From: Frankia alni ACN14a
Lineage (GTDB): Bacteria > Actinomycetota > Actinomycetes > Frankiales > Frankiaceae
Length of the DNA: 64,000 nucleotides
NCBI RefSeq assembly: GCF_000058485.1
Contig: NC_008278.1
Coordinates: forward strand, 1,978,962-2,042,961
Direction: 5' to 3'
The notes below the pieces were generated by a model that saw only the letters and a list, made by a program, of their open reading frames with translations, had not been told where the DNA came from and searched no databases. Each line of letters begins with the position of its first letter. Positions within the stretch are counted from its first letter, which is position 1. This document shows positions 26,265 through 53,122 of the stretch, piece by piece. Made by a program: the position numbers and the translations under genes.

Positions 26265-28814
<2,550 letters not shown>

Positions 28815-29117: not shown

Positions 29118-29167
29118 GCCGGCGTCGGTCGGCCCAGGTGGCCGCGGCACGGTCGTTGCCGTCGGCC

Positions 29168-29272: not shown

Positions 29273-29406
29273 GGTCCGGATGCCGCCGGTGGAGGTGGTC
29301 CGCCGGGGCCACGCCGGGCGGCGGTGCGCCGGGGCAAGCTCCGGATTGTGGCGATTCACGCGGGGTAGGTCCTCCGTCCCCGGGCCCGGTGCGGCACCAT
29401 GGCGAC

Positions 29407-33546: not shown

Positions 33547-35043
33547 TTGGACAGCGTGCCCGTCAGCGTCATCATCCCGGCCTACAACGAGGCGATGCGC
33601 CTGCCCGGTTTGCTGGCCGAGCTGGTGTCGGTGATGCGCAAGATTCCCGACGCCGAAGTGATCTTGGTTGACGATGGGAGTACCGACGGCACCGCCGCCG
33701 TCGCGGAGGGGTATCTCGCCGAGGTGCCGGGTGGCCGGGTGCTACGGCTACCGTGGAACTCGGGCAAGGGTGCGGCGGTGCGCGCCGGTGTGTCGGTTGC
33801 GCACGGTGCCTCGATCGTCTTCATGGACGCCGACGGCGCCTCGGACGTCAACGACCTGCCGTTGTTGCTGGCCGCTCTGGAACATGCCGAGGTGGCGCTC
33901 GGCTCGCGCCGCATCGGCGCCGGCGCGGTGCGTAGCAGCGGTCGCCGGGTCGGTAGCTGGGCCTTCAACCAGATCACCCGGTCGCTGGCGAGCCTGGATG
34001 TCGCCGATACCCAGTGCGGATTCAAGGCGTTCCGGGGGCAGGAGGCGAAGCTGCTGTTCAGCCTCGCCCGCTCGACGGGATTCGGCTTCGACGTCGAGGT
34101 GCTCTCGATCGCCCGCTCGATCGGCTACCGCATCGCCGAGGTCCCGATCCACTGGGCGGAGATCCCCGGCGGCACGTTCCGGGTGACCCGGCACACGCCG
34201 GCGATGATCGTCGACGTGGTGCGGGCCCGCCGCTACCTGGGCCGCGCCGCGCCCGGCCTCGTGGTGCCCGCCAACCCTGTGTCGACCGTCCAGCCCGTCC
34301 CGACCGTCCAGCCGGTCCGGCCCGAGTCGGCCGTCCAGCTCGGTGCGGCCGGCCAGAGCCACTCGCCTGCCCAGCCCGCTACGGCCGCTCAGCCTGCCTC
34401 CGCTGTCCCGCCCGTCTCCCGTGACCCAGCCGTGTCGCGTGGCCCGTCGGTCCCGTCCGACTCGTCCGCTGCGCCGGCGCGCGGGGGCGCGGCGCGGCGC
34501 GGGGCCCCGGCGGCGCGTCCCGACCGTGCCGATGGGCTCGGTCGGCCGGTTGTCGGCGCGGTTGCGCGTGGCCCGCTGTCGCCGCCGCGCCGCCCGAGGC
34601 CCGAGACGGTCCAGCCGGCGGCGGCGCGCCGGGGGGACCCGCCTGCGGGCGTTGCGGGCTCCGATCGCTCCGCGGCGGACCGCTCTCCGGCGGACCGCTC
34701 TCCGGCGGACCGCTCTCCGGCGGACCCGGTCGTGCTCGGCTCGGCCGCCGAGCCCGCCGGCGCGGGCCGCACGTCGGACGCCGGGGGTGCCGCGTTGGTG
34801 CTTCCGAGTGCCACGATGAGCCTCCCGAGCGCGGGTGTGAGCCGGCTCGCTGGCTCGAGGGTCGCCCTCGCGCACCCCGGGGAGACCGTCGAGGAGCCCG
34901 TCGTGACCATCCCGACGCCGGGCGGGGAGCCGACGACCGCCGCCACGGCCGCGCTGGCCGCGGTGCTGGCGACGACGGTGGGCCGCGGCGAGCTGTCGGT
35001 GCGTCCCGCGCCCGAGCGGGACGGCGCGGCCCGCTCGTCGTAG
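33547..35043 (+). CDS. GT2 polyprenyl-phosphate glycosyltransferase (DPM1-like) with long disordered tail
   Basis: 498 residues; only the first about 245 form the GT-A enzyme. VSVIIPAYNEA, VILVDDGSTDGT and IVFMDADGASD carry the nucleotide-sugar and metal-binding acids; DTQCGFKAFRG and STGFGFDVEVL are typical of dolichyl/polyprenyl-phosphate mannosyl- or glucosyltransferases. Such enzymes make the lipid-linked sugar donors used by GT-C enzymes like the AftD-like neighbour. The TTG start at 33547 has AGGAG 8 nt upstream. The C-terminal 250 residues are disordered, Pro/Ala/Ser-rich, and contain a VQPV-type repeat and four RSPAD copies. No transmembrane anchor is visible. Confidence 0.9.
   Translation: MDSVPVSVIIPAYNEAMRLPGLLAELVSVMRKIPDAEVILVDDGSTDGTAAVAEGYLAEVPGGRVLRLPWNSGKGAAVRAGVSVAHGASIVFMDADGASDVNDLPLLLAALEHAEVALGSRRIGAGAVRSSGRRVGSWAFNQITRSLASLDVADTQCGFKAFRGQEAKLLFSLARSTGFGFDVEVLSIARSIGYRIAEVPIHWAEIPGGTFRVTRHTPAMIVDVVRARRYLGRAAPGLVVPANPVSTVQPVPTVQPVRPESAVQLGAAGQSHSPAQPATAAQPASAVPPVSRDPAVSRGPSVPSDSSAAPARGGAARRGAPAARPDRADGLGRPVVGAVARGPLSPPRRPRPETVQPAAARRGDPPAGVAGSDRSAADRSPADRSPADRSPADPVVLGSAAEPAGAGRTSDAGGAALVLPSATMSLPSAGVSRLAGSRVALAHPGETVEEPVVTIPTPGGEPTTAATAALAAVLATTVGRGELSVRPAPERDGAARSS
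34674..34718. repeat. 15-bp tandem repeat in the GT2 tail (3 copies plus partial)
   Basis: Units of GGCGGACCGCTCTCC start at 34674, 34689 and 34704, with a partial fourth. They encode ADRSP pentapeptides in the disordered C-terminal tail and are frame-neutral. Confidence 0.92.
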
Positions 35044-35341
35044 CGGTCGCCCCACCGGCCGCCCGACCGTCGTCGCCGTCGTTGCGGCCGTTGTTGCTTC
35101 CACGCCGGGACGAGATGCCATCGGGTGTTATCGGCCGGGGAGGGGCGAGACATCCCGGTTCCGGTGCCCTGGGTAGGGTCGGGCATACCTGTTCTCGACC
35201 CTGGAGTCAGCGATTCTCTCCCCCGCCCGCGGTCCCGTCGCGACGGCGACCGGCCCGCGCGCGTACCGGTCATCCGCCGCCTTCACCTCCGCCGCCTCGT
35301 CGCCGCGCGCCCGCCGGACCTCGCGGTGGCCGCTGCTCGGG

Positions 35342-38300
35342 ATGGCGGTGGGGTTCGCGGTGCTCTACCTGCTCCAGGCGCCCGGCCGGCTGACCGCGGA
35401 CACCAAGCTGGACGTCCCCCTCGACCCGTGGGGCTTCATGGGCCGGGCCACCCATCTGTGGAACTCCCTCGCCGAGTTCGGGTACCTGCCGAACCAGTAC
35501 GTCGGCTACCTGTTCCCGATGGGGCCCTTCTTCGGCCTGGGCAAGCTGGTCGGCCTGCCGCCCTGGGCGACGCAGCGGCTGTGGATGGCGCTGCTGCTCA
35601 CCGTCTCGTCGTGGGGCGTCGTGCGCCTCGCCGACGCGCTGCGCCTCGGCGTGCCCGCCACCCGGGTGCTGGCGGGGCTCGCCTACACGCTGTCGCCGAT
35701 GTTCCTCGGCAAGATCGGGGCGACCTCCGTCGCGCTCGCGGGCGCGGCGATGCTGCCCTGGATCACCCTGCCGCTGATCCTCGCGCTGCGCCCCGACGGC
35801 GCCCTCGGCGCGGACACCGGCACGGCCGCGGCCCCCGGCCCGCCGGACGGCTACGGGTATCCCGACGGGCAGGATCCGGCCGCCGACCCGGCGCGGCGAC
35901 TGTCCCCGCGGCGCGCCGCGGCGCTGTCGGGCCTCGCCGTCGTGGGGACCGGTGGCACCAACGCCACCGTCACCCTGTGCGTGCTGCTCTGTCCGGCGGT
36001 GGTGCTCGCGTTCGCGGGCGGGACCCGCCGGGCCTGGGCGCTGCGGGCCTGGTGGGTGGTCGCGGTCATCCTCGCCACGATGTGGTGGCTGCTGGCGCTG
36101 ATGGTGCAGGGCCGCTACGGGCTGAACTTCCTGCCGTACACCGAGACCGTCCAGACGACGACGGCGACCACGTCGGTCGCCGAGACGCTGCGCGGCGCGA
36201 CGGACTGGATGGCCTACCTCCAGCTTCCGCGTCCCTGGCTGCCCGCGGCGACCGAGTACGTCTCCCGACCGGTGCCGATCGTCGGCTCCGCCGCCGTCGC
36301 CGCGATCGGGTTGTGGGGCCTGTCCCGGCCGGACCTGCCGGCCCGCCGGTTCCTGCTGGTGACGCTCGCCGTCGGCACCGTCTCCGTCGCCGCCGCCTAC
36401 CCGGGCGACCCGGGCAGCCCGCTGTCGGGCGTGGCGCGCGACCTGCTCGGCAACCAGCTCGGCTTCCTGCGCAACGTCTACAAGTTCCAGCCGGTGGTGC
36501 GGCTGCCGATCGCGCTGGGCGTCGGGCACGCGCTGGTAGCCCTGCCCGTCCGGGTCCGCCGCGCGCCCACGCGGCTGCGCCGCGCCGCCGGCCGGCGGGG
36601 CTGGGCGCGCCCACGGGCCGGCGTCACGACGGCTGCCGCCGCGGTGACGGTGGCCGCGCTCGTCTGCGGCATGACTCCCGCGCTGTCCGGCCGCGCGTTG
36701 CAGCCCCGCCCGTTCACGCAGGTGCCCGACTACTGGGTGCAGGCCGCCGACTGGCTCGGCGGGAACCCGCAGGGCGGCCGGGCGCTGGTGCTGCCCGGTT
36801 CGCCGTTCGCCGAGTACGACTGGGGCCGCCCCCTCGACGAGCCGCTGCAGTGGCTGGCGAAGACACCCTGGGGGGTTCGCAGCCTCATCCCGCTCGGCGG
36901 AGCCGGGGTGACCCGGCTGATGGACGGCATCGAACGCGAACTGGCCGCGGGCTCCGCGCCGGGGCTCGCCGACGCCCTGGCCCGGGCCGGCATCGGGCAG
37001 ATCCTGCTGCGCAACGACCTGGAGCAGAAGGACTGGGACATCCCCCCGTCCACCGACGAGCTGCACCGGGCGCTGCGTTCCTCCGGACTGACGCTGGCCG
37101 CCTCCTTCGGCCCGCAGGTGCCGGCACGCGCCTCGGCGAAGGAACGGCTCGTGCCGGAGCTGCGCAACCCGAAGCAGAAGGTGCCGGCGCTGGAGATCTG
37201 GACGGTGCCGACGGGCGCGAAGCTTGTCCAGTCCTACGCCGCCGACAGCGCCGTCGTCGTCTCCGGCGGACCCGAGGCGACGGTGCAGCTCGCCGCGCAG
37301 GGCCTGCTCGGCGCGGACCGGCCCGTCGTGCTCGCCGCCGACCTCGCCGGCCCGTCGGCCGCGGCGACGGCGCCGACGAGCCCGAACGCGATCAAGGTTG
37401 CGCCGGGGGAGGTGATCGGCCCGTCGACCGCCTGGGTCGACACGGACACCCTGACCCGCCGGGACAGCACGTTCGGCATCGTCCACGACGCCACCTCCTA
37501 CCTGCTCGGGCCGACCGGCAACGCCGTGGGCAGGACCGGGGAGCCCAACCAGTGGGCCGAGGACGACGTGGCCGGTCACCAGACCGTCGCCGGCTTCGTC
37601 GGTGGCATGTCGGTCACGGCCTCCTCCTACGGCTACGACCTGCTCGCCGCGCCGGATCTCGCGCCGCCGGCCGCCGTCGACGGGTTCACCGCGACAGCCT
37701 GGACGGCGATGCGCAAGAAGGGCACCACCTCCGCCGGCCAGTGGATCCAGCTCGACGTCGGTCACCGGATGGCCGTGCCCTACATCGACATCCGGCTGCT
37801 GTCGGAGGGCCCCTGGCGACCGGCCGTGCGGGCGATGCGGGTGACCAGCGAGTCCGGTGCGGTCGTGACCGAGGTGTCCCCGGTGGAGGACGTCCAGCGC
37901 CTCGCCGTCCCGCCGGGGGAGAGCCGCTGGTACCGGATCACGTTCGAGCGGGTCGACCGGGAGAACGACGACACCCTCGGCGCCGGCATCCGGGAGATCA
38001 CCATCCCCGGGGTCACGTTCGAGCACTACGCGCAGCTCCCCGACGACGTCGGCCGGCTGTTCGCCGGGGCCGACCAGGGGACCGTCGCCTTCTCGCTGGC
38101 GCGGGAGCGGGTCGACCCGGCGCAGCCGTTCGGTGGTTCGGAGGAGCTGGCGCTGTCCCGCCGCTTCGACGTGCCCCGTGAGATGACGTTCACCGTGAAC
38201 GGTACGGCGAGCTTCCTGCCGCCCCCCCGGGGGACCCCGCCCGCCGACGACGAGCCGCTGGTCGTGCCCTGCGGTAGTGGTCCCAGCCTGATCGCCGACG

Positions 38301-39361
38301 GGAAGCGTTACCCGTTGCGGATCACCGGGCGCAACAGCGACGTCACCTCGGTGCTGCCGGTGAAGGTCTCGCTGTGTACCGACGGGGGCCGCCTCGCGCT
38401 GCCTGCCGGGACCCACCAGCTGCGCGTCGACCAGGGCCCGACCTCGATCCTCGTCGACTCGCTGGCGCTGGTCGGCGCCGGGCGCCAGCCGGATGGGCAG
38501 GCGGCCCGCGCGACGCAGGTGCGCCAGTGGGGCGCGGAACACCGCAGCGTCCAGATCGGGGCGGGTGAGCGGGCGTTCCTGGCCGTGCGGGAGAACGCGA
38601 ACACCTCGTGGACCGCGAAGCTCGACGGCACCACGCTGACGCCGGTGCGTCTCGACGGCTGGCAGCAGGGCTGGATCGTGCCGGCCGGCGCCGGCGGCAC
38701 CGTCGTCATCGACAACGTCCCCGGCACCGAGTACCGGCGCAACCTGATCGTCGGGCTGCTGCTGCTCCTGGTGCTCGTCGGGCTCGCCGTGCTGCCGGAG
38801 CGGTTCCGGCTGCGGCGCCGCTCCAACGAGAACGGGTACCCGGCCTTTCCCCCGCTGCCGCGGGCGACCCGGCTGCCGGGGGCAGCGTCGCCGGGCCGTG
38901 CCGTGCGGGTGCTGTGGACGGGGCTGGCGATGGTCGCGCTGGCCCTGGTGGCCGGCCCGGTCGCCCTGGCGGTGCCGGTGCTCGTCTGGTTCGGGCGGTC
39001 GCGTCCGCAGGTGCTGGGGTGGCTTGCCGCGATCGCGATGCTCGGCGCGGGCATCGGCGTCGCGGCGGAACCGAACAGTCAGCCGGGGGCGGGGCACGGG
39101 GCGTTCGGGGTGCCCGTGCAGGTGCTCGGCGCGCTGGCGTTCGCCGCGGCGCTCGCCGCGCTGGTCGTCTGGGTCTGGCAACGGCCCACGGACCCGGACG
39201 TTACCGAGGCCGGCGGTGGCGGTGGCGACGGTGCTGGTCTCGGGGGTGCTGGTCTCGGGGGTGCTGGTTACGACGGTGGGGGTTTCGTCGCTCGGGCTGG
39301 CCGTGTCGGGCGGCGGACTTCCGGTGGCGGCCCATGGTCGGCAAGCAAGAGACTGGACTAG
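35342..39361 (+). CDS. aftD: AftD-like alpha-(1->3)-arabinofuranosyltransferase (DUF3367)
   Basis: A 1339-residue polytopic GT-C protein. The N-terminal half (about 1-430) has about 11 hydrophobic helices with LTADTKLDVPLDPWGFMGRA and NQYVGYLFPMGPFF, which match mycobacterial AftD closely. A long extracytoplasmic region of about 700 residues with carbohydrate-binding-like beta domains follows (QWIQLDVGHRMAVPYIDIRL is discoidin-like). Helices at about 1136-1154 and 1190-1260 end the chain. AftD adds alpha-1,3-arabinofuranose branches to arabinogalactan and lipoarabinomannan from decaprenyl-phosphoarabinose; the acceptor here is unknown. ATG 35342 is the first possible ATG/GTG/TTG in the open frame, but it has no clear ribosome binding site. 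The tail has a GAGLG repeat. Confidence 0.9.
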   Translation: MAVGFAVLYLLQAPGRLTADTKLDVPLDPWGFMGRATHLWNSLAEFGYLPNQYVGYLFPMGPFFGLGKLVGLPPWATQRLWMALLLTVSSWGVVRLADALRLGVPATRVLAGLAYTLSPMFLGKIGATSVALAGAAMLPWITLPLILALRPDGALGADTGTAAAPGPPDGYGYPDGQDPAADPARRLSPRRAAALSGLAVVGTGGTNATVTLCVLLCPAVVLAFAGGTRRAWALRAWWVVAVILATMWWLLALMVQGRYGLNFLPYTETVQTTTATTSVAETLRGATDWMAYLQLPRPWLPAATEYVSRPVPIVGSAAVAAIGLWGLSRPDLPARRFLLVTLAVGTVSVAAAYPGDPGSPLSGVARDLLGNQLGFLRNVYKFQPVVRLPIALGVGHALVALPVRVRRAPTRLRRAAGRRGWARPRAGVTTAAAAVTVAALVCGMTPALSGRALQPRPFTQVPDYWVQAADWLGGNPQGGRALVLPGSPFAEYDWGRPLDEPLQWLAKTPWGVRSLIPLGGAGVTRLMDGIERELAAGSAPGLADALARAGIGQILLRNDLEQKDWDIPPSTDELHRALRSSGLTLAASFGPQVPARASAKERLVPELRNPKQKVPALEIWTVPTGAKLVQSYAADSAVVVSGGPEATVQLAAQGLLGADRPVVLAADLAGPSAAATAPTSPNAIKVAPGEVIGPSTAWVDTDTLTRRDSTFGIVHDATSYLLGPTGNAVGRTGEPNQWAEDDVAGHQTVAGFVGGMSVTASSYGYDLLAAPDLAPPAAVDGFTATAWTAMRKKGTTSAGQWIQLDVGHRMAVPYIDIRLLSEGPWRPAVRAMRVTSESGAVVTEVSPVEDVQRLAVPPGESRWYRITFERVDRENDDTLGAGIREITIPGVTFEHYAQLPDDVGRLFAGADQGTVAFSLARERVDPAQPFGGSEELALSRRFDVPREMTFTVNGTASFLPPPRGTPPADDEPLVVPCGSGPSLIADGKRYPLRITGRNSDVTSVLPVKVSLCTDGGRLALPAGTHQLRVDQGPTSILVDSLALVGAGRQPDGQAARATQVRQWGAEHRSVQIGAGERAFLAVRENANTSWTAKLDGTTLTPVRLDGWQQGWIVPAGAGGTVVIDNVPGTEYRRNLIVGLLLLLVLVGLAVLPERFRLRRRSNENGYPAFPPLPRATRLPGAASPGRAVRVLWTGLAMVALALVAGPVALAVPVLVWFGRSRPQVLGWLAAIAMLGAGIGVAAEPNSQPGAGHGAFGVPVQVLGALAFAAALAALVVWVWQRPTDPDVTEAGGGGGDGAGLGGAGLGGAGYDGGGFVARAGRVGRRTSGGGPWSASKRLD
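39230..39274. repeat. 15-bp tandem repeat at the 3' end of aftD (2 copies plus degenerate third)
   Basis: GGTGCTGGTCTCGGG at 39230-39244 and 39245-39259 is followed by a degenerate copy. It encodes GAGLG GAGLG GAGYD in the cytoplasmic tail and is frame-neutral. Confidence 0.88.
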
Positions 39362-39425
39362 CGGCGCCGCAACACCGGCAGTTCGAACCTCGGCCGCCAT
39401 CCGTTTCAGAAGGAGTCACCGGGCC

Positions 39426-39992
39426 ATGACAGTGGTTGTGAGCGGATCCTCGACCCGGCAGTCCGCAACGGCCCCCGCATCCGTGGCGGCCACCCCACCG
39501 CTGTTCGACGTGGGGTGCGTCGAGCGGATGGCGCAGGCGATCCACCGCCGCTACCTCGACCATGAGCTCGGCAAGCGGCACGAGGCGGGTTCACGCCCGG
39601 GCCTACGACCGTGGGCGGAGCTGGCCGAGCCGCTGCGGGAGGCCAATCGCGCGCAGGCCGCCCAGTACGCGGCGATCGCGCAGGCCCGTGACTGGTCGAT
39701 CGTCTCCGCCGCGGCGGACGGCGACCCGTTCACCTTCACCGACGCCGAGATCGAGGAACTCGCCCGCGACGAGCACGTGCGGTGGCGCCGCCACAAGGAG
39801 CGCCAGGGCTACTCCTACGGACCGCTGCGCAGCGACGCCGGGCCGGACAAGCGACACCCGTCGATGGTGGACTGGGAGGAGCTCACCGAGGAGGACCGCG
39901 ACCGCGACCGTGACGTGATCCGCAACATGCCCGCCGTGCTGGCACACGCGCGGCTGCGGGTGACCCGCCGACCGGAGGCCGACGCGGGCTGA
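39426..39992 (+). CDS. RyR-domain protein
   Basis: A 188-residue soluble protein with a ryanodine-receptor-type (RyR) repeat domain. The N-terminal conserved part is VERMAQAIHRRYLD, then PWAELAEPLREANRAQAAQY; the C-terminal part is DEHVRWRRHKERQGYSYGP, then KRHPSMVDWEELTEEDRD. Bacterial RyR domains are thought to bind ligands, possibly nucleotide-like, but no function is proven. The ATG at 39426 has AAGGAG about 12 nt upstream and lies 64 bp after aftD, so the two are probably one transcript. Confidence 0.82.
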   Translation: MTVVVSGSSTRQSATAPASVAATPPLFDVGCVERMAQAIHRRYLDHELGKRHEAGSRPGLRPWAELAEPLREANRAQAAQYAAIAQARDWSIVSAAADGDPFTFTDAEIEELARDEHVRWRRHKERQGYSYGPLRSDAGPDKRHPSMVDWEELTEEDRDRDRDVIRNMPAVLAHARLRVTRRPEADAG

Positions 39993-40016
39993 GCCGCCTC
40001 GAGTCGGTCGGCTGAG

Positions 40017-40664
40017 TCAGTCGAAGCCGTTCGCGCGCAGCCACCGGCGCCGCCGGCGGGCGAGCAGGAGCCGGATGACGCGGGGCCGGCGGGCGTGGTC
40101 CTCCTCGAGGATGCGACGGACGACGGTCGCGTCGCTGACATAGCGGAAGCCGTCCTCGTCCGCCGATTCACCAAACCCCATCTCGGCCAGATCCTGCCGG
40201 TCCGGGGTCCTGTCCACCCAGCCCAGCAGGAACTCGGCGGCGGCGGGGAGTTCCACCGCCGCGGCGGTGAACTCGTGGGAGGGCTCAAGACGCAGCAGGC
40301 TCGCCGTCCGCCAGAGCGGGGCGAGCGCGCCTAAGTCGTCGCGGCGGTCCATGCTGCGCAGGCTGGCGAGGGCGACGGCGAGCAGCCCGAGGCGCAGCAG
40401 GTCGGGGTCGCCACGGCGGACCGCGAGCGAGGCCATCCGGATCCCGAAGGCCCGCAGGGTCTCCGCCTCCACCTCCGGGCGGATCAGGTCCAGTAACTGC
40501 TCGAGACCGCCACCGCGCCGTACCTTGCGCAACAGTGTGACGATAGCGAGGTCGCGTTCATGGGGGATTGTTTGGTCGGCGTAGTGCGCCGATGATTCTC
40601 CAGTGAGGCAGACGAGGTCCGCGAGCTCAATCCGGCCCGACGGGCACCTCTCGTCCCCGGTCAT
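40017..40664 (-). CDS. Hypothetical protein
   Basis: A 215-residue, mostly helical soluble protein I do not recognise. Its middle (TLRAFGIRMASLAVRRGDPDLLRLGLLAVALASL) looks like an alpha-solenoid or HEAT-like pair of helices. The C-terminus is strongly basic (RRPRVIRLLLARRRRRWLRANGF), suggesting nucleic-acid or membrane-surface contact. The ATG at 40664 has GAGAGGAG 4 nt upstream, so translation is well supported. It is convergent with the RyR gene (24-bp gap) and overlaps the 3' end of the small membrane protein gene upstream, which suggests coupling. Confidence 0.75.
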   Translation of the reverse strand: MTGDERCPSGRIELADLVCLTGESSAHYADQTIPHERDLAIVTLLRKVRRGGGLEQLLDLIRPEVEAETLRAFGIRMASLAVRRGDPDLLRLGLLAVALASLRSMDRRDDLGALAPLWRTASLLRLEPSHEFTAAAVELPAAAEFLLGWVDRTPDRQDLAEMGFGESADEDGFRYVSDATVVRRILEEDHARRPRVIRLLLARRRRRWLRANGFD

Positions 40665-40860
40665 GGCGCTCCTCTCCGCAATGGGTCGGTCGGCGCTCGC
40701 GCCAACCCTGGACGCCCCAGCCTGCGATGGCGGCGACCGGCGCCCACCCGAACGGCCGCCACCGGTCCGTGCCCGGGCGGGCTCGCCGGTGCGGTCCTGC
40801 GACCCGGTGGCCGAGCGCCCCGATCGCGCAGAGTGTCGCCACGATGACCGGGAGGATCAT
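40627..40860 (-). CDS. Small membrane protein, hypothetical
   Basis: A 77-residue protein with an N-terminal hydrophobic helix (MILPVIVATLCAIGALGHRV), a second weak one (WAPVAAIAGWGVQGW) and a charged tail. The ATG at 40860 is preceded by GAGAGGA with acceptable spacing. Its last 38 bp overlap the start of the hypothetical gene at 40664. Supported only by start signal, helix and overlap; no family is recognised. Confidence 0.45.
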   Translation of the reverse strand: MILPVIVATLCAIGALGHRVAGPHRRARPGTDRWRPFGWAPVAAIAGWGVQGWRERRPTHCGEERHDRGREVPVGPD

Positions 40861-41248
40861 GGGGGCATCCTCTCAGGTCCCGCCGGAGACGACCAGTAGG
40901 TAGCACTGGGTGACAGGGTGCCCGTTTCGGTACGGGGGGTAGGACGACGGTGCGGGCCGCACGCGACCTTTGGGATCTGTTACGCCCACATATTGGCTAC
41001 TTTGCGTGAGTGGCGGCCCGGCGTGCGGAGGGGACATGCGTCCTGCTCGGCGCCGTTTTTGTGGCCTCTGCCTGCCATGTCCCGGTTCGGGGTCACCTTC
41101 CGGGGGCGGGTCCGGATGGTCCGGCGGTGGGTGACCTCGGCCCCGAGCGGGCGATTTCTCCTGGTTACGCTTGACCTGCTCCTCGACGGCGACGCGCGCC
41201 ATCGCCGTGAAATCGCGAAATCCCCTGCAGAGAGGCCGGCCTACGACA
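40861..41248. other. Divergent spacer before the condensation-domain gene
   Basis: 388 bp. A less GC-rich patch at about 40970-41020 (containing TTACGCCCACATATTGGCTACTTT in two overlapping pieces) probably carries promoter elements. No gene is supported. Confidence 0.4.
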
Positions 41249-42730
41249 ATGGGATTGGCGCAGGACGGCGGGGCTCCGGCACCGCCGATACCCGATCGGG
41301 TGTTGACTCCCGGTGAGCAGATTCTCGCCGCGTCGGACCGGGCGAGTGCGCCGCTGACCTGCGGGCTGTTCGTCCAGTCGACGGGGCGGCTGGACCCGGC
41401 GCGGCTGCGGGCCGCGGTGTGGACGGTGATCCGTCGTCATCCGATGGCCCGCGCTGTGCTCTACGGATCCCGCCAGCACGCCTGGCGGTTCCCCGCCGAA
41501 CCGACGGCAGATCCGGTCGGTTTCGTCGACGACGGAACCGACGGGTGGCGCATCCACGAAATCCTGTCCTCGGCGCCGTTCGACCTGCACCGCTACCCGC
41601 CGATCCGGGTGGCGCTGATCCGGCGGGCCGACGGCGACCAGCTCAGCGTGGTGGCCCACCACCTCGCCTTCGACGGCCTGCGGCTCGCCGCGCTCGTCGC
41701 CGAGATCCTCGACCACTACCGGGAGGCGGCCTACGACGCCGACCGCGACGGCGCCGTCGCGTCGGGCGAGGGACACCGCGGCGTGCCGGCGGGCGTGGCG
41801 CCGCTGGCCCGGGCCGGGGTGCCCGGCTGGGCCGCGCTCGTCCGCCGGTCCGGGCGCTACATCACGCCGCTGGCGGTGGGGGGCGACGGCTACGGCTTCC
41901 ACCCGCTGATCCTGGCGGCGCCGGACGAGCGGCGGACGTTGCCGGACGGCCGGCGGATGACCATCAACGACCTGCTGATCGGCGCGGCGCACCTCGCGAT
42001 CGACCGGTGGAACTCCCGCCGGGGCGGCGAGTCCAGCCGGCTGCGGATCCGGATGCCGATCGACCTGGGGTCGGCGTCGTCGTTCGCCGCGGTGCCGTCC
42101 TCGTCGTCCTTCCCCGCGGCGTCCGAGATCAGCGGCAACCGGACCGGTCAGACGATCATTTCGAGCGAGGTCGCCGACCGGGTGGACTCGCTGCAGCTCG
42201 CCGTGCGCGTGGTGGACCAGACCGACCTGGCCAAGCAGGTCGTCCCGCCGGCCGTGCCGGGGCTCTCCGGCGCGCTGGGGATCGCCGCGGCCCGGTTCGT
42301 GCCCGGCCCGTGGCGCAGCACGCTGCTGCGCTGCGGGGTCGCCGCGGGGCGCCCGGTGCTTGCCCCGACCGCCGCGGTCAGCAACCTCGGTCGCTTCGAC
42401 GAGCTGGCTGGCGCCGCCGGGCGGCCGATCAGCGCCGTGTACTTCACCGGGACGGCCGGGATGCCGCAGGGGTTGTTCATCGGCGTGCTCGGGATGGGCG
42501 ACAGCCTGCACGTCACGTTCGGCTACCACCGTCACCTTCTCGGCCCGGGCTCGGTGCCGACCTTCGCGGATCTGTACCGGGCCGCCTTCGTCGAGCTGAG
42601 CGACACCGGTGCGGCCGTGCCGGCGGCGGCGACCGCGCCGACCCCCGCCGTGGCCAGGGCCCCGCGGCCGGACCGCGCGGCGGCCCCCGCGGTGACCACC
42701 CGCCGCGGCGGGGCCGTCCCGTCGCGTTGA
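41249..42730 (+). CDS. Condensation-domain acyltransferase (PapA/WES-like)
   Basis: A 493-residue, free-standing condensation-domain protein of the CoA-dependent acyltransferase superfamily. The catalytic HHxxxDG motif is HHLAFDG (about residue 143). The second half has MTINDLLIGAAHLAIDRW and RLRIRMPIDLG, corresponding to the DFG/latch region. It resembles PapA-type proteins that esterify glycolipids. No carrier domain is attached. It sits next to a GT4 glycosyltransferase and a flippase, so acylation of a surface glycan or glycolipid is a reasonable inference. The ATG at 41249 is preceded by GAGAGG about 12 nt upstream; an upstream in-frame start at 41171 is less likely. Confidence 0.8.
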   Translation: MGLAQDGGAPAPPIPDRVLTPGEQILAASDRASAPLTCGLFVQSTGRLDPARLRAAVWTVIRRHPMARAVLYGSRQHAWRFPAEPTADPVGFVDDGTDGWRIHEILSSAPFDLHRYPPIRVALIRRADGDQLSVVAHHLAFDGLRLAALVAEILDHYREAAYDADRDGAVASGEGHRGVPAGVAPLARAGVPGWAALVRRSGRYITPLAVGGDGYGFHPLILAAPDERRTLPDGRRMTINDLLIGAAHLAIDRWNSRRGGESSRLRIRMPIDLGSASSFAAVPSSSSFPAASEISGNRTGQTIISSEVADRVDSLQLAVRVVDQTDLAKQVVPPAVPGLSGALGIAAARFVPGPWRSTLLRCGVAAGRPVLAPTAAVSNLGRFDELAGAAGRPISAVYFTGTAGMPQGLFIGVLGMGDSLHVTFGYHRHLLGPGSVPTFADLYRAAFVELSDTGAAVPAAATAPTPAVARAPRPDRAAAPAVTTRRGGAVPSR

Positions 42731-42735
42731 GGCGA

Positions 42736-42776
42736 GGCCGGGCGGCGCGCCGACGGGCCGCAGGCGCCGCCCGGCC
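42736..42776. terminator. Bidirectional hairpin between acyltransferase and GT4 genes
   Basis: Perfect 13-bp arms (42736-42748 and 42764-42776) with a 15-nt loop lie between the convergent stop codons at 42730 and 42784. Confidence 0.7.
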
Positions 42777-42783
42777 GGGCCGC

Positions 42784-44613
42784 TCACCCGCGGCCGGCGG
42801 ACGCCCCCCGGCCGTCGGACACTCCGCCGCCGGCGGACACCCTGCGGCTGGTGGGCACTCGGGCGGCCGGCGGGAAACCGGAGGCCGGCGGTGCGTCGGC
42901 CCCCGACGCCAGCTCGCGGCTCGCGGCGAGCAGCAGGTCCTCCCCGGTGCCGGGACGCAGCCGAGGCTCGGCGGACACCCCGGCCCGGGCCAGCGCCGCC
43001 CGCGCGGCGGCCTCGCCGGCGCCGTAGAGGACGGCGACCGCCTCGGCCCCGTCGGGATCCGGCCGGTACACCAGGTCGGTGCGGCGCAGGGCGGGGCGGG
43101 GCGCGCCGGCCGGCAGCGTGAACGTGGCGTGGGTGAGCTCGTCGTCGACCCGGCGGCGATCGCGTGCCACCCTCCGCCCCCGGCCCGCGCTCGACGGCCG
43201 CGCCTGCCGGTCGATCTCCGCGGTGACCACCCGGGCGAGCAGCTCGGCGCCGGCGTCCCAGGTGAAGCCGGCCGCCCAGGCGCGCGCGGCCGCGCGCAGC
43301 CGGGCCGCGGCGGGTGGATCGGCCAGCGTCCGCAGCGCGGTGCCGATCGTGCCCGCCAGCGGCACGCCCTCGTCGACGAGCCAGCCCGTCGTCCCGTCCC
43401 GGACCGCGTCGCGCAGCCCCGGCACCCGGAACGCCACCGCCGGCACCCCGAGGGCGGCCGCCTCCAGCACCGACAGCCCCCAGCCCTCCCCGTGCGAGGG
43501 GTTCACCGTCAGCCAGGCCGAGGCCAGCAGCCGGTCGCGGGTGGCCGCGTCGGTGTAACCATGCCACCGAACAACGTCGCCGCCGGGGGAGTCGCCGCCG
43601 GGGGAGTCGCCGCCAGGGGAGTCGCCGCCGGGGGAGTCGCCGCCGCGGGCGTGGCCCTCCCCGAGGGCGCCGCCGGCGGAGGCGGTCGTCAGCCCGAGCG
43701 CGACCGCGCGGGCGACCAGTCGCTGCCGGTCGGGGCCGTCGCCGACGACGTGGACGGTCAGACCCGGATGGGCGGCGACCAGCGCCGGCAGCGCGTCGAG
43801 GAGCAGGTGCAGCCGCTTGTGCGGCACGAGCCGACCGACGCACACGATCGTCGGCTCCGCGGCGGGACGCCCCGTCCCCCGGTCCGCCCCATCCGCCGAG
43901 GACGCCAGTCCGCCGGTGGTCATGGGGGAGGGGACGGAGGCGGTCATGGGGGAGGGGACGGAGGTGGTCATGGGGGAGGGGACGGAGGCGGTCACGCCGT
44001 TGGGGACGAGGAAGCGCGGGCCGGGCAGGCCCAGCACCTCGCGCGCCTCCATCCGGGTCGAGGGGGAGACGACGACCACCGGGCGACGGCGGTAGACCAG
44101 CCGGCTGCCCGGCGCCTCCAGCACCTGCCCGACCCTGGCCACCGGACCCGGGAAGTACAGCGGGAACTGCTTCTGGTGGACATGGTGCAGCACCTGGACG
44201 ATCGGCGTGGACGCCGGCAGGACCAGCGGGCTGAAGAACGGGATCCCGTTCTGACAGTCGACGACCGCGTCGACCCGGTGGCCACCCCGGCCGAGGCCCG
44301 CCAGCCGGCCCAGCACGGACGGATAGACCCCGAAGGTGCCACCGCCCCGGCGGACGTCCACCCCGGCCACGTGCTCGGCCACCGGGAGCGACTGCCCCTC
44401 GCCCCCGGCCGGCCGGGAGGTCAGCAGCGTCACCCGCGCGCCGGCCGCGGCGAACCGCTCGGCGATCGACTGGCAGAACAGCTCGGCCCCCCCGGCCTGC
44501 GGGTGGTCCTGATCACGCCAGTTGAGGAAGACGACATGCCGGCCGGCGAGGGTGGGCAGGTACCGGTGCTCCCCGAGCCTGGCGGGATGCGGCGTGCTGG
44601 GGCTTCCGATCAC
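42784..44613 (-). CDS. GT4-family glycosyltransferase with two internal repeat arrays
   Basis: A 609-residue cytoplasmic GT-B glycosyltransferase. The N-terminal acceptor domain starts FLNWRDQDHPQAGGAELFC; the C-terminal donor-binding domain has TIVCVGRLVPHKRLHLLLDAL, HVVGDGPDRQRL and the E-x7-E motif in NPSHGEGWGLSVLEAAALG. Two frame-neutral arrays interrupt it. One (VPSPMT) lies exactly at the hinge between the two Rossmann domains; the other (GGDSP x4) lies inside the second. The last about 170 residues are an extra domain (ATFTLPAGAPRPALRRTDLVY) rich in Ala/Gly. The GTG at 44613 has GAGAGGA upstream. It is divergent from the flippase gene. Confidence 0.88.
   Translation of the reverse strand: MIGSPSTPHPARLGEHRYLPTLAGRHVVFLNWRDQDHPQAGGAELFCQSIAERFAAAGARVTLLTSRPAGGEGQSLPVAEHVAGVDVRRGGGTFGVYPSVLGRLAGLGRGGHRVDAVVDCQNGIPFFSPLVLPASTPIVQVLHHVHQKQFPLYFPGPVARVGQVLEAPGSRLVYRRRPVVVVSPSTRMEAREVLGLPGPRFLVPNGVTASVPSPMTTSVPSPMTASVPSPMTTGGLASSADGADRGTGRPAAEPTIVCVGRLVPHKRLHLLLDALPALVAAHPGLTVHVVGDGPDRQRLVARAVALGLTTASAGGALGEGHARGGDSPGGDSPGGDSPGGDSPGGDVVRWHGYTDAATRDRLLASAWLTVNPSHGEGWGLSVLEAAALGVPAVAFRVPGLRDAVRDGTTGWLVDEGVPLAGTIGTALRTLADPPAAARLRAAARAWAAGFTWDAGAELLARVVTAEIDRQARPSSAGRGRRVARDRRRVDDELTHATFTLPAGAPRPALRRTDLVYRPDPDGAEAVAVLYGAGEAAARAALARAGVSAEPRLRPGTGEDLLLAASRELASGADAPPASGFPPAARVPTSRRVSAGGGVSDGRGASAGRG
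43579..43638. repeat. 15-bp tandem repeat in GT4 gene (4 copies)
   Basis: Units of GCCGCCGGGGGAGTC start at 43579, 43594, 43609 and 43624, one with a single base change. They encode GGDSP repeats inserted in a loop of the donor-binding domain, just before VVRWHGY. Confidence 0.93.
43921..43992. repeat. 24-bp tandem repeat in GT4 gene (3 copies)
   Basis: Three 24-bp units start at 43921, 43945 and 43969, nearly identical. On the minus strand they encode TASVPSPM-type octapeptides at the inter-domain hinge. Confidence 0.93.
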
Positions 44614-44756
44614 CGGTGGCGTTCCTCTCGGTCCGATCGACAGGGCTTAGCATGTTCGCCTGCAACCTACAGATGTCGGAAAAATCGGCGGGCACATACC
44701 ATTGCCGGTGTTCCGCCACGGGTGATCGACGTGTTCCGTTCCCGATGGGGAGACTG

Positions 44757-46202
44757 ATGGCGAAGCCCTCGCGAGAGGCTGTGTCCGGCCTGTTGGCCGG
44801 CCCGGCAGCCCTGGCGGTCGCCGGCATGCTCGTCAACGGCTGCAACCTGCTGATGAACCTGATCGTCGCGCGCGCCCTGGACTCCGATTCCTACGGCGCC
44901 GTGTCCGTTCAGGTGAGCATCTTCCTGATCCTGTCGGTCGCCGGAAATGCCCTGCTCATCGCCGTTGTGCAGCACGAGACGTCCGGAACCGGTGACACTC
45001 GCCGCGAGCAGTGGTCCTGGATCCGCCGGCTGCGCGGGGCCTGCGGCGTCGCGATCGTCGTCGCCACCGTCGCCGCCCTGGCGCTGTCCCGTCCGGCGGC
45101 GGCGCTGATGTCCTACCCCCACCCGGTGGCGATCGCCGAGGCCACGATCGGGGCCGCGTTGTGGACGCTGCTGTGCGTCGAGCGCGGCCTGATGCAGGCC
45201 CGCGGCGCCTATCCGCGGCTGGCCGTGAACTTCGTGGTCGAGGGCTTCGTCCGGATCGGTCTGGTGATCGCCTTCGTGGTCTCGGGCATGGGGGTCAACG
45301 GCGCGGGGCTCGGCATCGTCATCGGCGTGATCGTGGGCGCCGAGCATGCCCGCTGGGCGGTCGCCCGCACCCCGCGGCTACCCCGTCCGGCGACCGTGCG
45401 CACGTGGTCGGCGCCGCTGCCCGACGACGGCACCGCGGCGGCCACCGGCCCGATTCCGATGCCGATTCCGGCCCCGCGGGCCAGCGCCCGCCAGAGTGTC
45501 ATCGCCGACACCACCGTGGCGCTCGGTGCGCTCATCCCGCTGGCCCTGCTGCAGAACATGGACGTCGTCATCGTCGGTTGGCTGGGTACGGACGGGGTGG
45601 GCGGCTACGCGGCGATCTCGACGGCCTGCAAGGTGCCGGTCTTCATCGGGCTGGCGGTGGCCAACTTCCTGCTGCCCGAGGCGGCCCGGCGGCGCAAGGA
45701 GGGCCGTCCGGCCGGGGCGACCCTGGCCGTGGCCCTCGCGTTCGTCGTCACGCCCGGCCTGTTTCTCGCCGCGATCGGTCTGGTCGGGGCGAAGTGGCTG
45801 CTGGGCCTGGTGTTCGGGCCCCACCTGACCGGCGCGGCCCCCGCCCTGTGGGTGTTGGCGCTGAGCATGACGCTGTTGGCCGTCACGCTCATGTTCACCA
45901 CCTACCTGCTCGGCGCGGGGGTGCGCCGGGTGGTCGGGGTGCTGGCGGTCGCCACGGTGGCGACGGCGGGAGCGCTGGTCTCGGCCGGCGGCGGCTCGAT
46001 GGCGACGGCGACGGCGGCGCTCGCCGCCGAGTCGGTGACCGCACTCGCGGTCGGGCTGCTCGTGGTCCAGCTCCATCACGCCGACCGGCAGGCGGCGGGC
46101 AGGCAGGCTAGTGAGGCCGGGCGCGGCGGCGAGGACGCGCCGCTCGGCGCCGTCTCGATCAGCGACGCGCGGCCCGAGGAAGGCTTCCCCGCGCCGGTCT
46201 AG
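44757..46202 (+). CDS. Polysaccharide flippase-like membrane protein (MOP/Wzx type)
   Basis: A 481-residue polytopic protein with about 12 hydrophobic segments. It begins AGPAALAVAGMLVNGCNLLMNLIVARALDSDSYGA (quoted in overlapping parts: GCNLLMNLIVARALD, then SYGAVSVQVSIFLIL), the pattern of MOP-superfamily polysaccharide exporters. The second half has LLQNMDVVIVGWLG and GYAAISTACKVPVFIG, again typical. It likely moves a lipid-linked glycan across the membrane. The ATG at 44757 has GGGGAG 4 nt upstream. It is divergent from the GT4 gene and 142 bp upstream of the large anchored protein. Confidence 0.87.
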   Translation: MAKPSREAVSGLLAGPAALAVAGMLVNGCNLLMNLIVARALDSDSYGAVSVQVSIFLILSVAGNALLIAVVQHETSGTGDTRREQWSWIRRLRGACGVAIVVATVAALALSRPAAALMSYPHPVAIAEATIGAALWTLLCVERGLMQARGAYPRLAVNFVVEGFVRIGLVIAFVVSGMGVNGAGLGIVIGVIVGAEHARWAVARTPRLPRPATVRTWSAPLPDDGTAAATGPIPMPIPAPRASARQSVIADTTVALGALIPLALLQNMDVVIVGWLGTDGVGGYAAISTACKVPVFIGLAVANFLLPEAARRRKEGRPAGATLAVALAFVVTPGLFLAAIGLVGAKWLLGLVFGPHLTGAAPALWVLALSMTLLAVTLMFTTYLLGAGVRRVVGVLAVATVATAGALVSAGGGSMATATAALAAESVTALAVGLLVVQLHHADRQAAGRQASEAGRGGEDAPLGAVSISDARPEEGFPAPV

Positions 46203-46344
46203 GCGCCCCCGGACGGGCGTGGTCCAAAGACCATGTCCGATATGTCGTCCTGATCTGTCGGGTACGGTCGTCCTACTCGGCCGGGGCCCCCCACCCTCCG
46301 GCCTCGAGAGGGCCCACCGGCGTTGAGAGGCGAGGCCACCGTAC

Positions 46345-48891
46345 ATGCCAGCCAAGATCCGTTCGGATGCCGACGGCGGTGAGCGCGGGCGCACCACAGT
46401 CGGCAGATCTGGCCGCCGTCGCGGCAGGGACACCCACGACGGCCATGACCGAGCAAGCCGTCCCGACGCCGCTTCTGCGGACGCCCCTGACCCGGACGCC
46501 GTTGCTTCGAATGCCCCTGACCCGGATGCCCCTGACCCGGACAACCCTGACCCGGACAACCCCGGCCTGAACAACCCTGGCTCGGACGCGCGCGATGCGG
46601 ACCCCGCGGCCCGGGATCGTGACCCCACTCGCCGCAGCGCCACCCCCGGCGACGGCAACCACGACCACGACACCCTGCCCGGCCGCGGCAAGCAGGTCCG
46701 GATCGGCAGGCAGGTCCGCTTCGGGAAGGGCCACGCCTCCGCCAGCGGCCAGGCCTCCCACGACCGCCCTGGCTCCCACGACCGTCATGCGCCCGGCGAC
46801 CGCGCCGCCGGCGACCGTCATGCCGCCGGCGACCGTCATGCCGCCGGCGGCGGCCGCGCCATCCACGGCGGCCACAGTGCCAAGGACGGCGCCGACGGCG
46901 GTGCGAGCAGCGATGATCACGACACGCTGCCGGGTCGTACCGGTGCCTTCGTCCTCGCCGACACCGACCAGAACGAACACGGTCGCCGGGCCCGTCGCCG
47001 GGCCCGCGCCGGTCGGCGGGACCGTGCCACCGAGGCCACCTGGATCGGGGCCGCGGACCTGCCCGGCGCCGACCAGCCGGAGAGCTCCGCCAAGCCGGCC
47101 GCGGCCGCGGCCCCGGCTCCGGCCGCGCCGGGCGACGGGGCGGGCGAGCAGGCCGGGGCGGGCGACAGGGCCGCGGGTGCGGAGCACGCCCGGCTCAGCC
47201 GCCGGCGGCTGCTCGTGACCGCCGTGGGGCTCGGCGCCGCCGCGGGTGGCGGGCTCATCGCCGGGCGGCTGCTGTCGTCGGATGGGTCGGTGCCCGGCGG
47301 CCTGCCCCGGGGCCAGCCGTCCACTCCGGTCGGCGGGGTCACGGCCGGCCCCTCGGTGCAGGCCGGCTCGGTGACGAAGCTGCCCGAGAACCTGCTGACC
47401 ATCTACGGCGCGCCCGGCAGCTTCGGCAACTTCGACGGCGGCCAGACGACGGTCCGGGTCACCGAGGTGCCCGGGTGGGGCTTCGGCCCCGGTCAGGCCG
47501 CGTTCATGTCCGCGGTGTCGGCCGACGGGACCGTGTTCGTGACGACCACGCCGTTCTCCGACGACCAGTCGAAGCTGACCGGTACCGACATGGAGATCGA
47601 GGTCTTCGAGCCGGACATCGAGCGGTTCACCCGGCTGGTGATCCCCTCGACGAAGGGCCGGCTGAGCCTGCCCCGGCTCGATCCGAACTACCGCGGCGTC
47701 GGCGGCGGGGACACCTCCGACGTGATCGTCGTGCCCGGCCCGGACGGCGCCCAACGGGTGCTGTTCACCTCGCTGATGCCCTACTTCGGCTGGAACACGG
47801 CCGTCGACGGGGAGCTGCCGAGCGTCGGCCAGCTCCGCCGGGACCAGCCGACCGCACGATGGGTCTACGACCCGCAGGAGTCCTGGACGGCGCAGCAGCT
47901 CGCCACCGCGACCTCGCCGTCCCTCGCCGCCCGGGCCTTCCCGGTGCTCGGCCCGCTGCAGCCGCGTTCCTCGCGCGGCCCGGCGTCCATCGCCCGCCTG
48001 CCCCGCAGCGGGCACCTGGTCATCGCCCAGTACCTGGGTGCCGGCGGCGGCGGAACCGACAACGGGGCGCTGCTCGTCGTCGACGTGGCCGGCCGGGTCC
48101 TGGCGCACTGGCAGTATCCGCAGGTCCGGCCCCTGGGCATCGCCCTGGTCGTCAACCCGCGAGAGGTTGTCGCCGACCCGACCAGCGAACCGGACGACGA
48201 GCGGTTCGTCCTCATCAGCGACGTGCGGGGCCTGGACTACAGCACCCAGCCGTTCCCGATCCAGGAGTTCTCCTACTCGGCGTCCCGCGGCACCATCACC
48301 CCGTGCAGCACCGCGGTGCGGGCCGTGCAGGACGGGTCCCGGATGGAGTCGGCCGTGTTCGGCGCGGACGGCACGCTCTACGTGGCGCGGACGAAGAGTG
48401 ACGGCCTGCGCGCCGAGACCGTGGCCGTCTACCCGAAGCTCGGCCGCGAGCGCGGCCTGGTGACCCGCGCGCCGGCGACCGGCAACTGGCCGACGGACAC
48501 CTGGGGCATCGCGAACCAGCCCGACTACCTGGTGGCCGGCACCGACCAGGGCGGGCTGGTCCGCAGCATCACCCTCGATCCGCGGACCGGCGCGATCCTG
48601 CTTGCCGGCCTCGACGGGCTGGTGCAGGTCGTGCGGCCGGCGGGGCGCGGCGCACGGATGACCTTCCGCACCGAGCCGCCCATCGACGTGGGCCTGAACA
48701 TGCTGCGCGGTCCGTCGACCCGCTACGTCGGGGTGCGCCGCGGCGCGGTCGACCCGTTGCGGCGCAGCCTGTGGCTGCCCGTCAACCAGATGGTGCTCGA
48801 CGGCCTGCCCTGGCCGTACCCGCCGTTCAAGCTCGACCAGTGGCTGATGCGGGTCGACCTCGACGTCCTGCTCGGCGACGACCAGGGGTGA
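46345..48891 (+). CDS. Large anchored extracytoplasmic protein with internal Tat-like segment
   Basis: 848 residues in three parts. Residues 1-285 are disordered and repetitive (Asp/Pro-rich DPDAPDPDN, His/Asp/Arg-rich GDRHAA). A twin-arginine-like segment follows, RLSRRRLLVTAVGLGAAAGG, with a helix (about 287-312). The remaining 530 residues look like a beta-propeller or similar beta-rich fold (LVIAQYLGAGGGGTDNGALL, VLISDVRGLDYSTQPF, ESAVFGADGTLYVARTK). I cannot name the family. The gene follows the flippase and probably belongs to the same surface-glycan system. The ATG at 46345 has GAGAGGCGAGG upstream. An export signal nearly 300 residues inside the protein is unusual, and a shorter in-frame start could exist. 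Confidence 0.7.
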   Translation: MPAKIRSDADGGERGRTTVGRSGRRRGRDTHDGHDRASRPDAASADAPDPDAVASNAPDPDAPDPDNPDPDNPGLNNPGSDARDADPAARDRDPTRRSATPGDGNHDHDTLPGRGKQVRIGRQVRFGKGHASASGQASHDRPGSHDRHAPGDRAAGDRHAAGDRHAAGGGRAIHGGHSAKDGADGGASSDDHDTLPGRTGAFVLADTDQNEHGRRARRRARAGRRDRATEATWIGAADLPGADQPESSAKPAAAAAPAPAAPGDGAGEQAGAGDRAAGAEHARLSRRRLLVTAVGLGAAAGGGLIAGRLLSSDGSVPGGLPRGQPSTPVGGVTAGPSVQAGSVTKLPENLLTIYGAPGSFGNFDGGQTTVRVTEVPGWGFGPGQAAFMSAVSADGTVFVTTTPFSDDQSKLTGTDMEIEVFEPDIERFTRLVIPSTKGRLSLPRLDPNYRGVGGGDTSDVIVVPGPDGAQRVLFTSLMPYFGWNTAVDGELPSVGQLRRDQPTARWVYDPQESWTAQQLATATSPSLAARAFPVLGPLQPRSSRGPASIARLPRSGHLVIAQYLGAGGGGTDNGALLVVDVAGRVLAHWQYPQVRPLGIALVVNPREVVADPTSEPDDERFVLISDVRGLDYSTQPFPIQEFSYSASRGTITPCSTAVRAVQDGSRMESAVFGADGTLYVARTKSDGLRAETVAVYPKLGRERGLVTRAPATGNWPTDTWGIANQPDYLVAGTDQGGLVRSITLDPRTGAILLAGLDGLVQVVRPAGRGARMTFRTEPPIDVGLNMLRGPSTRYVGVRRGAVDPLRRSLWLPVNQMVLDGLPWPYPPFKLDQWLMRVDLDVLLGDDQG
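46480..46572. repeat. Degenerate tandem repeat encoding DPDAPDPDN
   Basis: GCCCCTGACCCGGA-like units recur about six times with 12-27-bp spacing, encoding Asp-Pro-rich peptides in the disordered N-terminus of the anchored protein. Confidence 0.75.
46786..46851. repeat. 18-bp tandem repeat encoding GDRHAA
   Basis: GCCGCCGGCGACCGTCAT at 46804-46821 and 46822-46839 is flanked by degenerate copies. It is frame-neutral and lies in the same disordered N-terminal region. Confidence 0.88.
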
Positions 48892-52630: not shown

Positions 52631-53122
52631 CGTGGTGCTGCTCCCACCCTGTGTGTCGGATGCCCGCCGCAGGGGCGCCCCGCGACGGCGAGCGTCGGGG
52701 AGTGCGACCGGGGCGGCCCAGGAGCGCTCGTGGCCCGGTCGAGTGGCGTGCACCCGCGAAAGTCAGGGGGCGGCACGTCCACGGATGTCAACGACCAGCC
52801 CGCGGGCCGGGTTCCGGCTCCACGGCGTCACCTGTTGTTTTCCCGCCGGTTGACCTCGTCACGCGCCGAGGTTCGGCGGAGAAGAGTAAATCGGCCATTT
52901 GGCTGCATTGCCTGACCGACTTCGTTTTTCGTACCACCGATGACTCGGCTGCCTTTCTGGACGCGATCTGGCGGTACCGCCGGGCATGTTCCCGGTCGCC
53001 CGGTCCGCATTCCTCGGCCGTCGGGTGCTCCGGACCCGTCGGGTTGCACGTCGGGACTGCCCGCCGGACGGCCGCCGGGTCAACCGGGACGCCCGTCACC
53101 CGGCACAACCCGCCCCCGACGG
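52631..53122. other. Divergent spacer before the second SpoIIE phosphatase gene
   Basis: About 490 bp. The middle (about 52880-52960) is less GC-rich, with TTCGTTTTTCGTACC and AGAGTAAATCGGCC, and is likely promoter DNA. Frames through it have no ribosome binding site, and no protein is recognisable. Confidence 0.4.

Follow-up and report, generated by a model that had tools for sequence, protein, structure and literature searches.

AftD is known as an arabinofuranosyltransferase whose donor, decaprenyl-phosphoryl-arabinose (DPA), is made by DPPR synthase, an enzyme of the UbiA type, together with DprE1 and DprE2. The single-contig genome of Frankia alni ACN14a (7,497,934 bp) encodes an AftD-family protein within a stretch of 64,000 nucleotides (G000:C1:1978962-2042961), referred to here as the window, whose positions are used unless another sequence is named. 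A first-pass annotation had proposed that this protein and its neighbors form an undescribed locus for the assembly and acylation of a surface glycan. We asked what such a locus is likely to build in Frankia, and from which sugar donor. We conclude that it is the form taken in Frankiaceae by an ancient actinomycete cluster for envelope glycans, uncoupled from arabinose and working by the mechanism set out in the Discussion, a reading to which we assign a probability of roughly 0.55.

RESULTS

Gene content of the locus

The GT2, AftD-like, condensation-domain acyltransferase, GT4, MOP and anchored-protein genes on which the proposal was built were all confirmed in place by GC3, Pfam, NCBIfam and structure (Table 1), and GC3-based gene calling showed coding GC3 bias in every named gene of the interval 33547-48891. 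The locus is not one operon, since its genes occupy both strands, with COND, GT4 and the 215-aa gene alternating. The genes scanned from 24603 to 58968 included neither of the enzymes expected of a Wzx/Wzy polysaccharide pathway, an initiating phosphoglycosyltransferase and a Wzy polymerase.

Table 1. Genes of the locus, with window positions, strand and principal evidence
Gene product	Position	Strand	Evidence
GT2, polyprenyl-phosphate sugar synthase-like	33547-35043	+	PF00535, 3.2e-29
AftD-family GT-C with carbohydrate-binding-like region	35342-39361	+	PF11847, 2.3e-219
RyR-domain protein	39426-39992	+	PF02026, 5.9e-11
215-aa hypothetical protein	40017-40664	-	No Pfam/NCBIfam match
COND, condensation-domain PapA/WES-like acyltransferase	41171-42730	+	PF00668, 2.4e-9
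GT4 glycosyltransferase	42784-44613	-	PF00534, 6.1e-28
MOP-superfamily flippase	44616-46202	+	Predicted structure and profile match
ANCH, signal-anchored beta-propeller	46345-48891	+	RRRLL, hydrophobic segment and structure model

Some gene starts deserve comment. The AftD reading frame is open from 35177, upstream of its called start, and the RyR gene is better called as tabulated, from an ATG after AGAAGGAG that was picked by its ribosome-binding site. The MOP protein more likely starts at 44745 or 44757, because its first 40 to 50 residues are unconserved and unfolded.

Elsewhere in the window, a stand-alone protein with AMP-binding, PP-binding and Thioesterase domains (55930-58968, minus strand) is syntenic in Frankia and adjoins a CHASE3-HAMP-SpoIIE phosphatase (52940-55090). 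An AI-2E family transporter (28762-31095, plus strand) carries a low-complexity N-terminal extension of about 440 residues ahead of its domain; this extension is shorter or missing in relatives, and the true start is probably downstream.

Frankiaceae lack recognizable genes for the arabinose donor

Whole-genome profiles were run for DPPR synthase, DprE1, DUF3068 and MmpA, and the other absences reported here are at the level of the neighborhood; distances and presence refer to one genome per species, some of them as partial contigs. The DPPR synthase profile (NF008978) had no match in F. alni or in any of the 15 AftD-bearing Frankiaceae genomes. The same profile was positive in the Corynebacterium glutamicum control and over cut-off in 61 of 198 genomes of the class, and in several genomes of family f17 the DPPR synthase gene lies about 10 kb from AftD. 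DprE1 (NF053785) was found in 0 of 11 Frankiaceae genomes, the best score being about 59 bits against a cut-off of 500; elsewhere it scored 598 to 785 bits in single frames in families f4 and f17 and 660 bits, joined, in an f18 genome. F. alni has a single ALO-domain protein, which is a sugar-lactone oxidase. Across the class, DPPR synthase over cut-off was missing from 52 of the 90 AftD-bearing genomes sampled, a count that includes some incomplete genomes, related genomes that are not independent and one genome (G051) with a 160-bit match below the cut-off.

Published wall-sugar data for Frankiaceae type strains list galactose, glucose, mannose, rhamnose, ribose and xylose, with fucose in one strain and no arabinose; the table is compatible with a minor arabinose component. 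Because DPPR synthase and DprE1 are missing and arabinose is not among the published wall sugars, the name arabinofuranosyltransferase is probably wrong for AftD in Frankiaceae. It had been suggested from the window alone that, if the DNA came from Frankia, which lacks mycolic acids, the acceptor must differ from that of mycobacteria; the idea of a differing product is strengthened, since a missing DPA pathway means that the donor must differ as well. With the known arabinose-donor genes missing, the F. alni cluster most likely builds a different surface sugar.

AftD retains the features of an active glycosyltransferase

The AftD-family protein matches PF11847 with 730 bits (cut-off, 26) over model positions 3 to 650 of 661, and its nearest solved structures are those of mycobacterial AftD (6wbx/6w98; E about 1e-132). 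It shares with them the GT-C domain, the DTK motif, an invariant Glu and Arg and a carbohydrate-binding-like region, and differs in that the F. alni genome is without the known donor pathway. In our alignment, the protein keeps the DTKLD motif, E268, R377, D499 and D702, and AftD proteins show no variation at the Asp, Glu and Arg positions that an active GT-C should have, whether or not the genome carries DPA genes. Since these motifs are intact though the DPA genes are missing, the Frankia enzyme is probably active on a donor other than DPA.

The missing donor genes would also fit an AftD that serves an export machine as a membrane scaffold or carbohydrate-binding protein and is not a working glycosyltransferase, as proposed for MmpA, which is related to the AftD membrane half and acts in lipid transport (PMC8698533). 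The invariance of the Asp, Glu and Arg residues, with or without DPA genes, argues against this view, which we regard as very improbable.

Somewhat less improbable, although we still consider it quite unlikely, is that AftD is a true arabinofuranosyltransferase in Frankia, supplied by unrecognized donor enzymes, and that the locus makes a lipoglycan or wall polysaccharide with arabinan, like that of mycobacteria. The strength of the PF11847 match and the conserved motifs are consistent with this explanation, as is the outcome of a search of the alignment for a donor-specific residue signature splitting AftD by DPA genes: none was found, and the few lineage-specific differences are at residues 50, 134 and 352. 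The donor-gene searches in the Frankiaceae and the published wall sugars speak against it. We found no paper linking Frankia with an arabinofuranosyltransferase among the open-licence literature, which is a weak negative.

In a tree of AftD proteins, the window-type copies of Frankiaceae form one clade, and a further copy, AftD2, is a separate old paralogue grouped with second copies from families f26, f27 and f33; the tree was built quickly and has long branches, which leaves its deep joins unsure. An apparent large insert in aftD at residues ~150 to 190 in four genomes (G004, G005, G009 and G010) was dropped, as it traced to contig ends or to interleaved GT2/aftD pieces, and the latter pattern suggests faulty assembly of a GC-rich loop. 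In Frankia sp. QA3 (L034 13795-18019 and L035 345-1400), a split aftD holds the N-terminal part of GT2, which is probably an assembly error, the alternative being a real rearrangement; in three other genomes, contigs break at the GC-rich loop where the QA3 aftD is split.

The neighboring GT2 is a candidate donor synthase

The catalytic part of GT2 spans approximately residues 1 to 245, with a DAD motif at residue 94, and is followed by a low-complexity, unconserved C-terminal half; the protein has no transmembrane segments. Its nearest solved relatives are ArnC and dolichol-phosphate mannose synthase, and its best NCBIfam matches are polyprenyl-phosphate sugar transferases, every one of them below cut-off. 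We therefore propose, from these similarities, that GT2 may be the donor maker, a putative synthase of the polyprenyl-phosphate sugar type.

It is also conceivable that AftD uses a polyprenyl-phosphate hexose from a GT2 encoded elsewhere, such as a mannose synthase, and that the neighboring GT2 serves another reaction. Ppm1-type mannose synthases are common in actinomycetes, and the adjacency of GT2 and AftD is found mainly in Frankiaceae: outside this family, GT2 adjoins AftD only in one f17 locus (L111), and weak GT2-like neighbors of AftD occur in L107, L108 and L130-L133. Against this possibility, the same-strand order of GT2 followed by AftD is kept across Frankia, Parafrankia and Protofrankia, and GT2 is duplicated along with AftD in two genomes (G099 and G006). 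On balance, we consider a donor synthase encoded elsewhere unlikely.

GT4 is a class-wide partner of AftD

When 25 actinomycete genomes were searched with a GT4 profile, all 25 had one outstanding GT4 (280 to 673 bits; next GT4, at most 145 bits) or, in Frankiaceae, one for each of the two AftD modules, and in 25 of 25 it was located at AftD. In 20 of the 22 non-Frankiaceae genomes, this gene lies within 1 kb of the PF11847 match, and in two f4 genomes it lies 6 and 11 kb away; for 3 of the 22, their own GT4 scores are partly by construction, because those genomes supplied rows of the profile. By tblastn with GT4 proteins alone, keeping separate a SAM methyltransferase of 244 to 338 aa (MtrP-like by position), 28 of 31 non-Frankiaceae loci had a homologue of the window GT4 no more than 3 kb from AftD. 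GT4 is a class-wide AftD partner. A literature search for Rv0225 together with glycosyltransferase found nothing in open-licence papers, again a weak negative.

The same association is seen in a second module of the F. alni genome, approximately 110 kb from the window locus, in which AftD2 is directly followed by a GT4 gene and then by a MOP gene. Their products are 33% identical to the window GT4 and 36 to 37% identical to the window MOP protein, respectively. A GDP-mannose 4,6-dehydratase and an AT3-SGNH acyltransferase are encoded downstream, and the module points to a product that contains a GDP-deoxyhexose-derived sugar. This module lies outside the window (L031 7220-19556; G000:C1 about 1900220-1912556), is conserved across Frankiaceae and adjoins polA in several of them. 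In some families, clusters contain two AftD paralogues with a weakly related GT2 nearby (L130-L133), an arrangement that is possibly near the ancestral form of both Frankia modules.

Conservation separates a stable core from variable and genus-limited genes

The whole region is syntenic within the genus Frankia, which proves little taken alone. The neighborhood is also conserved in Parafrankia and Protofrankia and partly in Pseudofrankia, and GT4-MOP-ANCH is inverted as a block in "Candidatus Frankia nodulisporulans" (G012). The first-pass annotation had named joint conservation of the GT4, the flippase, the acyltransferase and the anchored protein as the support to look for; this was the case for GT4, MOP and ANCH, and the acyltransferase proved variable.

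We considered whether these genes belong to separate pathways and are neighbors through inherited synteny only, as their mixed strands might suggest and as might the flanking rpiB, GNAT, AKR and ABC transporter genes, which are unrelated and equally syntenic within the genus. In Pseudofrankia and in other families these flanks do not accompany AftD; the GT4-AftD linkage, in contrast, extends through the class and recurs in the paralogous module. Such an accident of synteny is extremely unlikely and is largely refuted for AftD, GT4, MOP and ANCH, while it is possible for the RyR and 215-aa genes. The AftD/GT4/MOP/ANCH neighborhood is not due to chance.

The MOP protein had no Pfam match at E values up to 0.01. 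It has 12 hydrophobic segments, and its AlphaFold model (pLDDT, 74.1) gave TM scores to target of 0.67 to 0.74 for MurJ and WzxE, the best being 0.74 for WzxE; the matches of the model in the Foldseek top 50 were MATE, MurJ, WzxE and other MOP-superfamily transporters. Its profile also matches the MOP-like neighbors of AftD in other families (probability, 98.7; E, 4e-16). The model thus predicts a MOP-superfamily fold for this protein.

ANCH has an internal signal-anchor of the twin-arginine type (RRRLL) at residue 286 with one hydrophobic segment; the sequence ahead of it is of low complexity and missing in many orthologues, and the sequence after it is modeled as a beta-propeller (pLDDT, 76.7; pTM, 0.82). 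Pfam found nothing useful in ANCH, and the best structural neighbors are WD40, YncE and sialidase-like propellers, which, at only 8 to 13% identity, imply no function. Of 84,980 species scanned, only Frankiaceae (Frankia, Parafrankia, Protofrankia and Pseudofrankia) yielded ANCH, in 26 loci; where the flank was long enough, the gene nearly always lay beside AftD, GT4 or MOP. One Frankiaceae orthologue (L077 12303-13943) has a lipobox-like VAAC behind a twin-arginine signal, which suggests a lipoprotein anchor in place of the membrane anchor.

COND contains an intact HHxxxDG motif (HHLAFDG) at residue 163 and no transmembrane segments. In this motif and in a weak overall similarity it resembles PapA5-type acyltransferases; it differs from them in falling far below the NCBIfam PapA5 cut-off (27.4 bits against 396) and in lying in a locus without polyketide lipid genes. 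A COND homologue is found beside AftD in four f18 loci, and COND occupies the place where other genomes carry an AT3 acyltransferase. G002 and G142 have no COND gene at this locus, and we therefore regard it as an optional member; its product is 31 to 39% identical in other Frankiaceae genera. Acylation had been one step of the original proposal; this distribution does not bear it out as a constant part of the pathway. Given the lack of a membrane segment and the retained HHLAFDG motif, COND, if active, would acylate before export.

The RyR and 215-aa genes were found only in genus Frankia neighborhoods, and the latter is the hypothetical gene that Pfam and NCBIfam left unmatched (Table 1). 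Nothing supports the suggestion that they are regulators, and by this distribution neither is a core part of the locus.

Relation of the core to the aftD-tmaT locus of Corynebacterineae

In C. glutamicum, cg3161-cg3168 encode AftD, TmaT, two membrane proteins, a putative glycosyltransferase and MtrP (PMC7775120), and the counterpart genes of Mycobacterium tuberculosis are Rv0226c-Rv0228 and Rv0236c (PMC8698533, PMC6656915). In 31 loci of the class, the neighbors of AftD were GT4 (29 loci), DUF3068/PorA (26), MmpA-family proteins (20), AT3 acyltransferases (18), another membrane-protein family (12) and MOP (10), and the clusters often lie between polA and rpsA. These recurring neighbors correspond to the genes of the C. 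glutamicum and M. tuberculosis loci. The F. alni locus resembles the aftD-tmaT locus in having AftD, GT4 and an acyltransferase in one neighborhood, with the GT4-AftD pair class-wide. "Undescribed" was therefore too strong a word for its core, which is related to the Corynebacterineae locus (PMC7775120, PMC8698533).

The F. alni locus differs in being without MmpA, DUF3068 and DPA genes, and mycolates are not expected. By whole-genome profile, MmpA was found in 0 of 11 Frankiaceae, F. alni included, and DUF3068 in 2 of 11, F. alni not among them. The window copy also has a condensation-type acyltransferase and not AT3/TmaT, with MOP and ANCH added; AT3 is absent here, and the AT3-SGNH protein is at the AftD2 copy.

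MmpA has been described as having no relatives outside corynebacteria and mycobacteria (PMC8698533). The MmpA profile (NF053599) scored above cut-off in further families as well, some of whose genomes lack DPA genes, and the mycolate-lipid-export/lipoglycan-maturation locus can therefore be called actinomycete-wide. Judged from sequence, an aftD-tmaT-type core appears throughout the actinomycetes and is not tied to mycolic acids. Beyond mycobacteria and corynebacteria, MmpA-family and DUF3068 genes stand beside AftD in L110 (4801-6582), L090 (13530-14600) and similar loci.

DISCUSSION

We propose that the stable center of the ancient cluster is an AftD-family GT-C with one GT4, joined by a MOP protein and an acyltransferase and, elsewhere, by MmpA and DUF3068. 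In experimentally defined three-component glycosylation systems, a polyprenyl-phosphate sugar synthase acts with a MATE/MOP flippase and a GT-C that has a carbohydrate-binding module (PMC11127046). A synthase-like GT2, a MOP flippase and a GT-C are all present in the F. alni locus, which is like the Citrobacter youngae O1/O2 and GtrA/GtrB/Gtr systems in its polyprenyl-phosphate-type GT2, its MOP/MATE fold and its GT-C with a binding module. It differs from them in that the Frankia GT-C is of the AftD family and not GT136, the synthase is a GT2 and not UbiA, and the activity is predicted only.

This likeness in composition, together with the resemblance of GT2 to polyprenyl-phosphate sugar synthases, is the basis of the mechanism that we favor. 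GT2 would charge polyprenyl phosphate with a non-arabinose sugar, thereby supplying a hexose- or deoxyhexose-type donor, while a lipid-linked glycan would be built in the cytoplasm by GT4 and, where COND is present, may be acylated there. The MOP protein would then flip this glycan, or else the GT2 product, outward. Outside the membrane, AftD would take the sugar from its lipid donor and add it to the glycan, decorating or extending it, with its carbohydrate-binding region holding the glycan and ANCH possibly assisting as an extracytoplasmic partner. The transferred sugar could be mannose, rhamnose, xylose or galactose, and AftD might draw on a donor produced by enzymes encoded at another locus.

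For the broader claim, that AftD in Frankiaceae and other actinomycetes without DPA genes transfers another polyprenyl-phosphate-linked sugar and that the aftD-GT4-MOP-acyltransferase cluster is an ancient surface-glycan machine, we would give even odds. AftD, TmaT, MmpA and Rv0227c are essential or predicted essential envelope proteins of mycobacteria, and they have been interpreted by way of arabinan and mycolic acids. If the claim is true, mycobacterial arabinan synthesis and mycolate-lipid export would be later specializations of that ancient actinomycete machine. Since the same core occurs in bacteria without a recognizable arabinose donor pathway, automatic "arabinofuranosyltransferase" labels are unproven in many genomes. 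The ancestral function of the aftD cluster becomes a testable question, and Frankia, a nitrogen-fixing plant symbiont, gains a concrete candidate locus for an envelope glycan.
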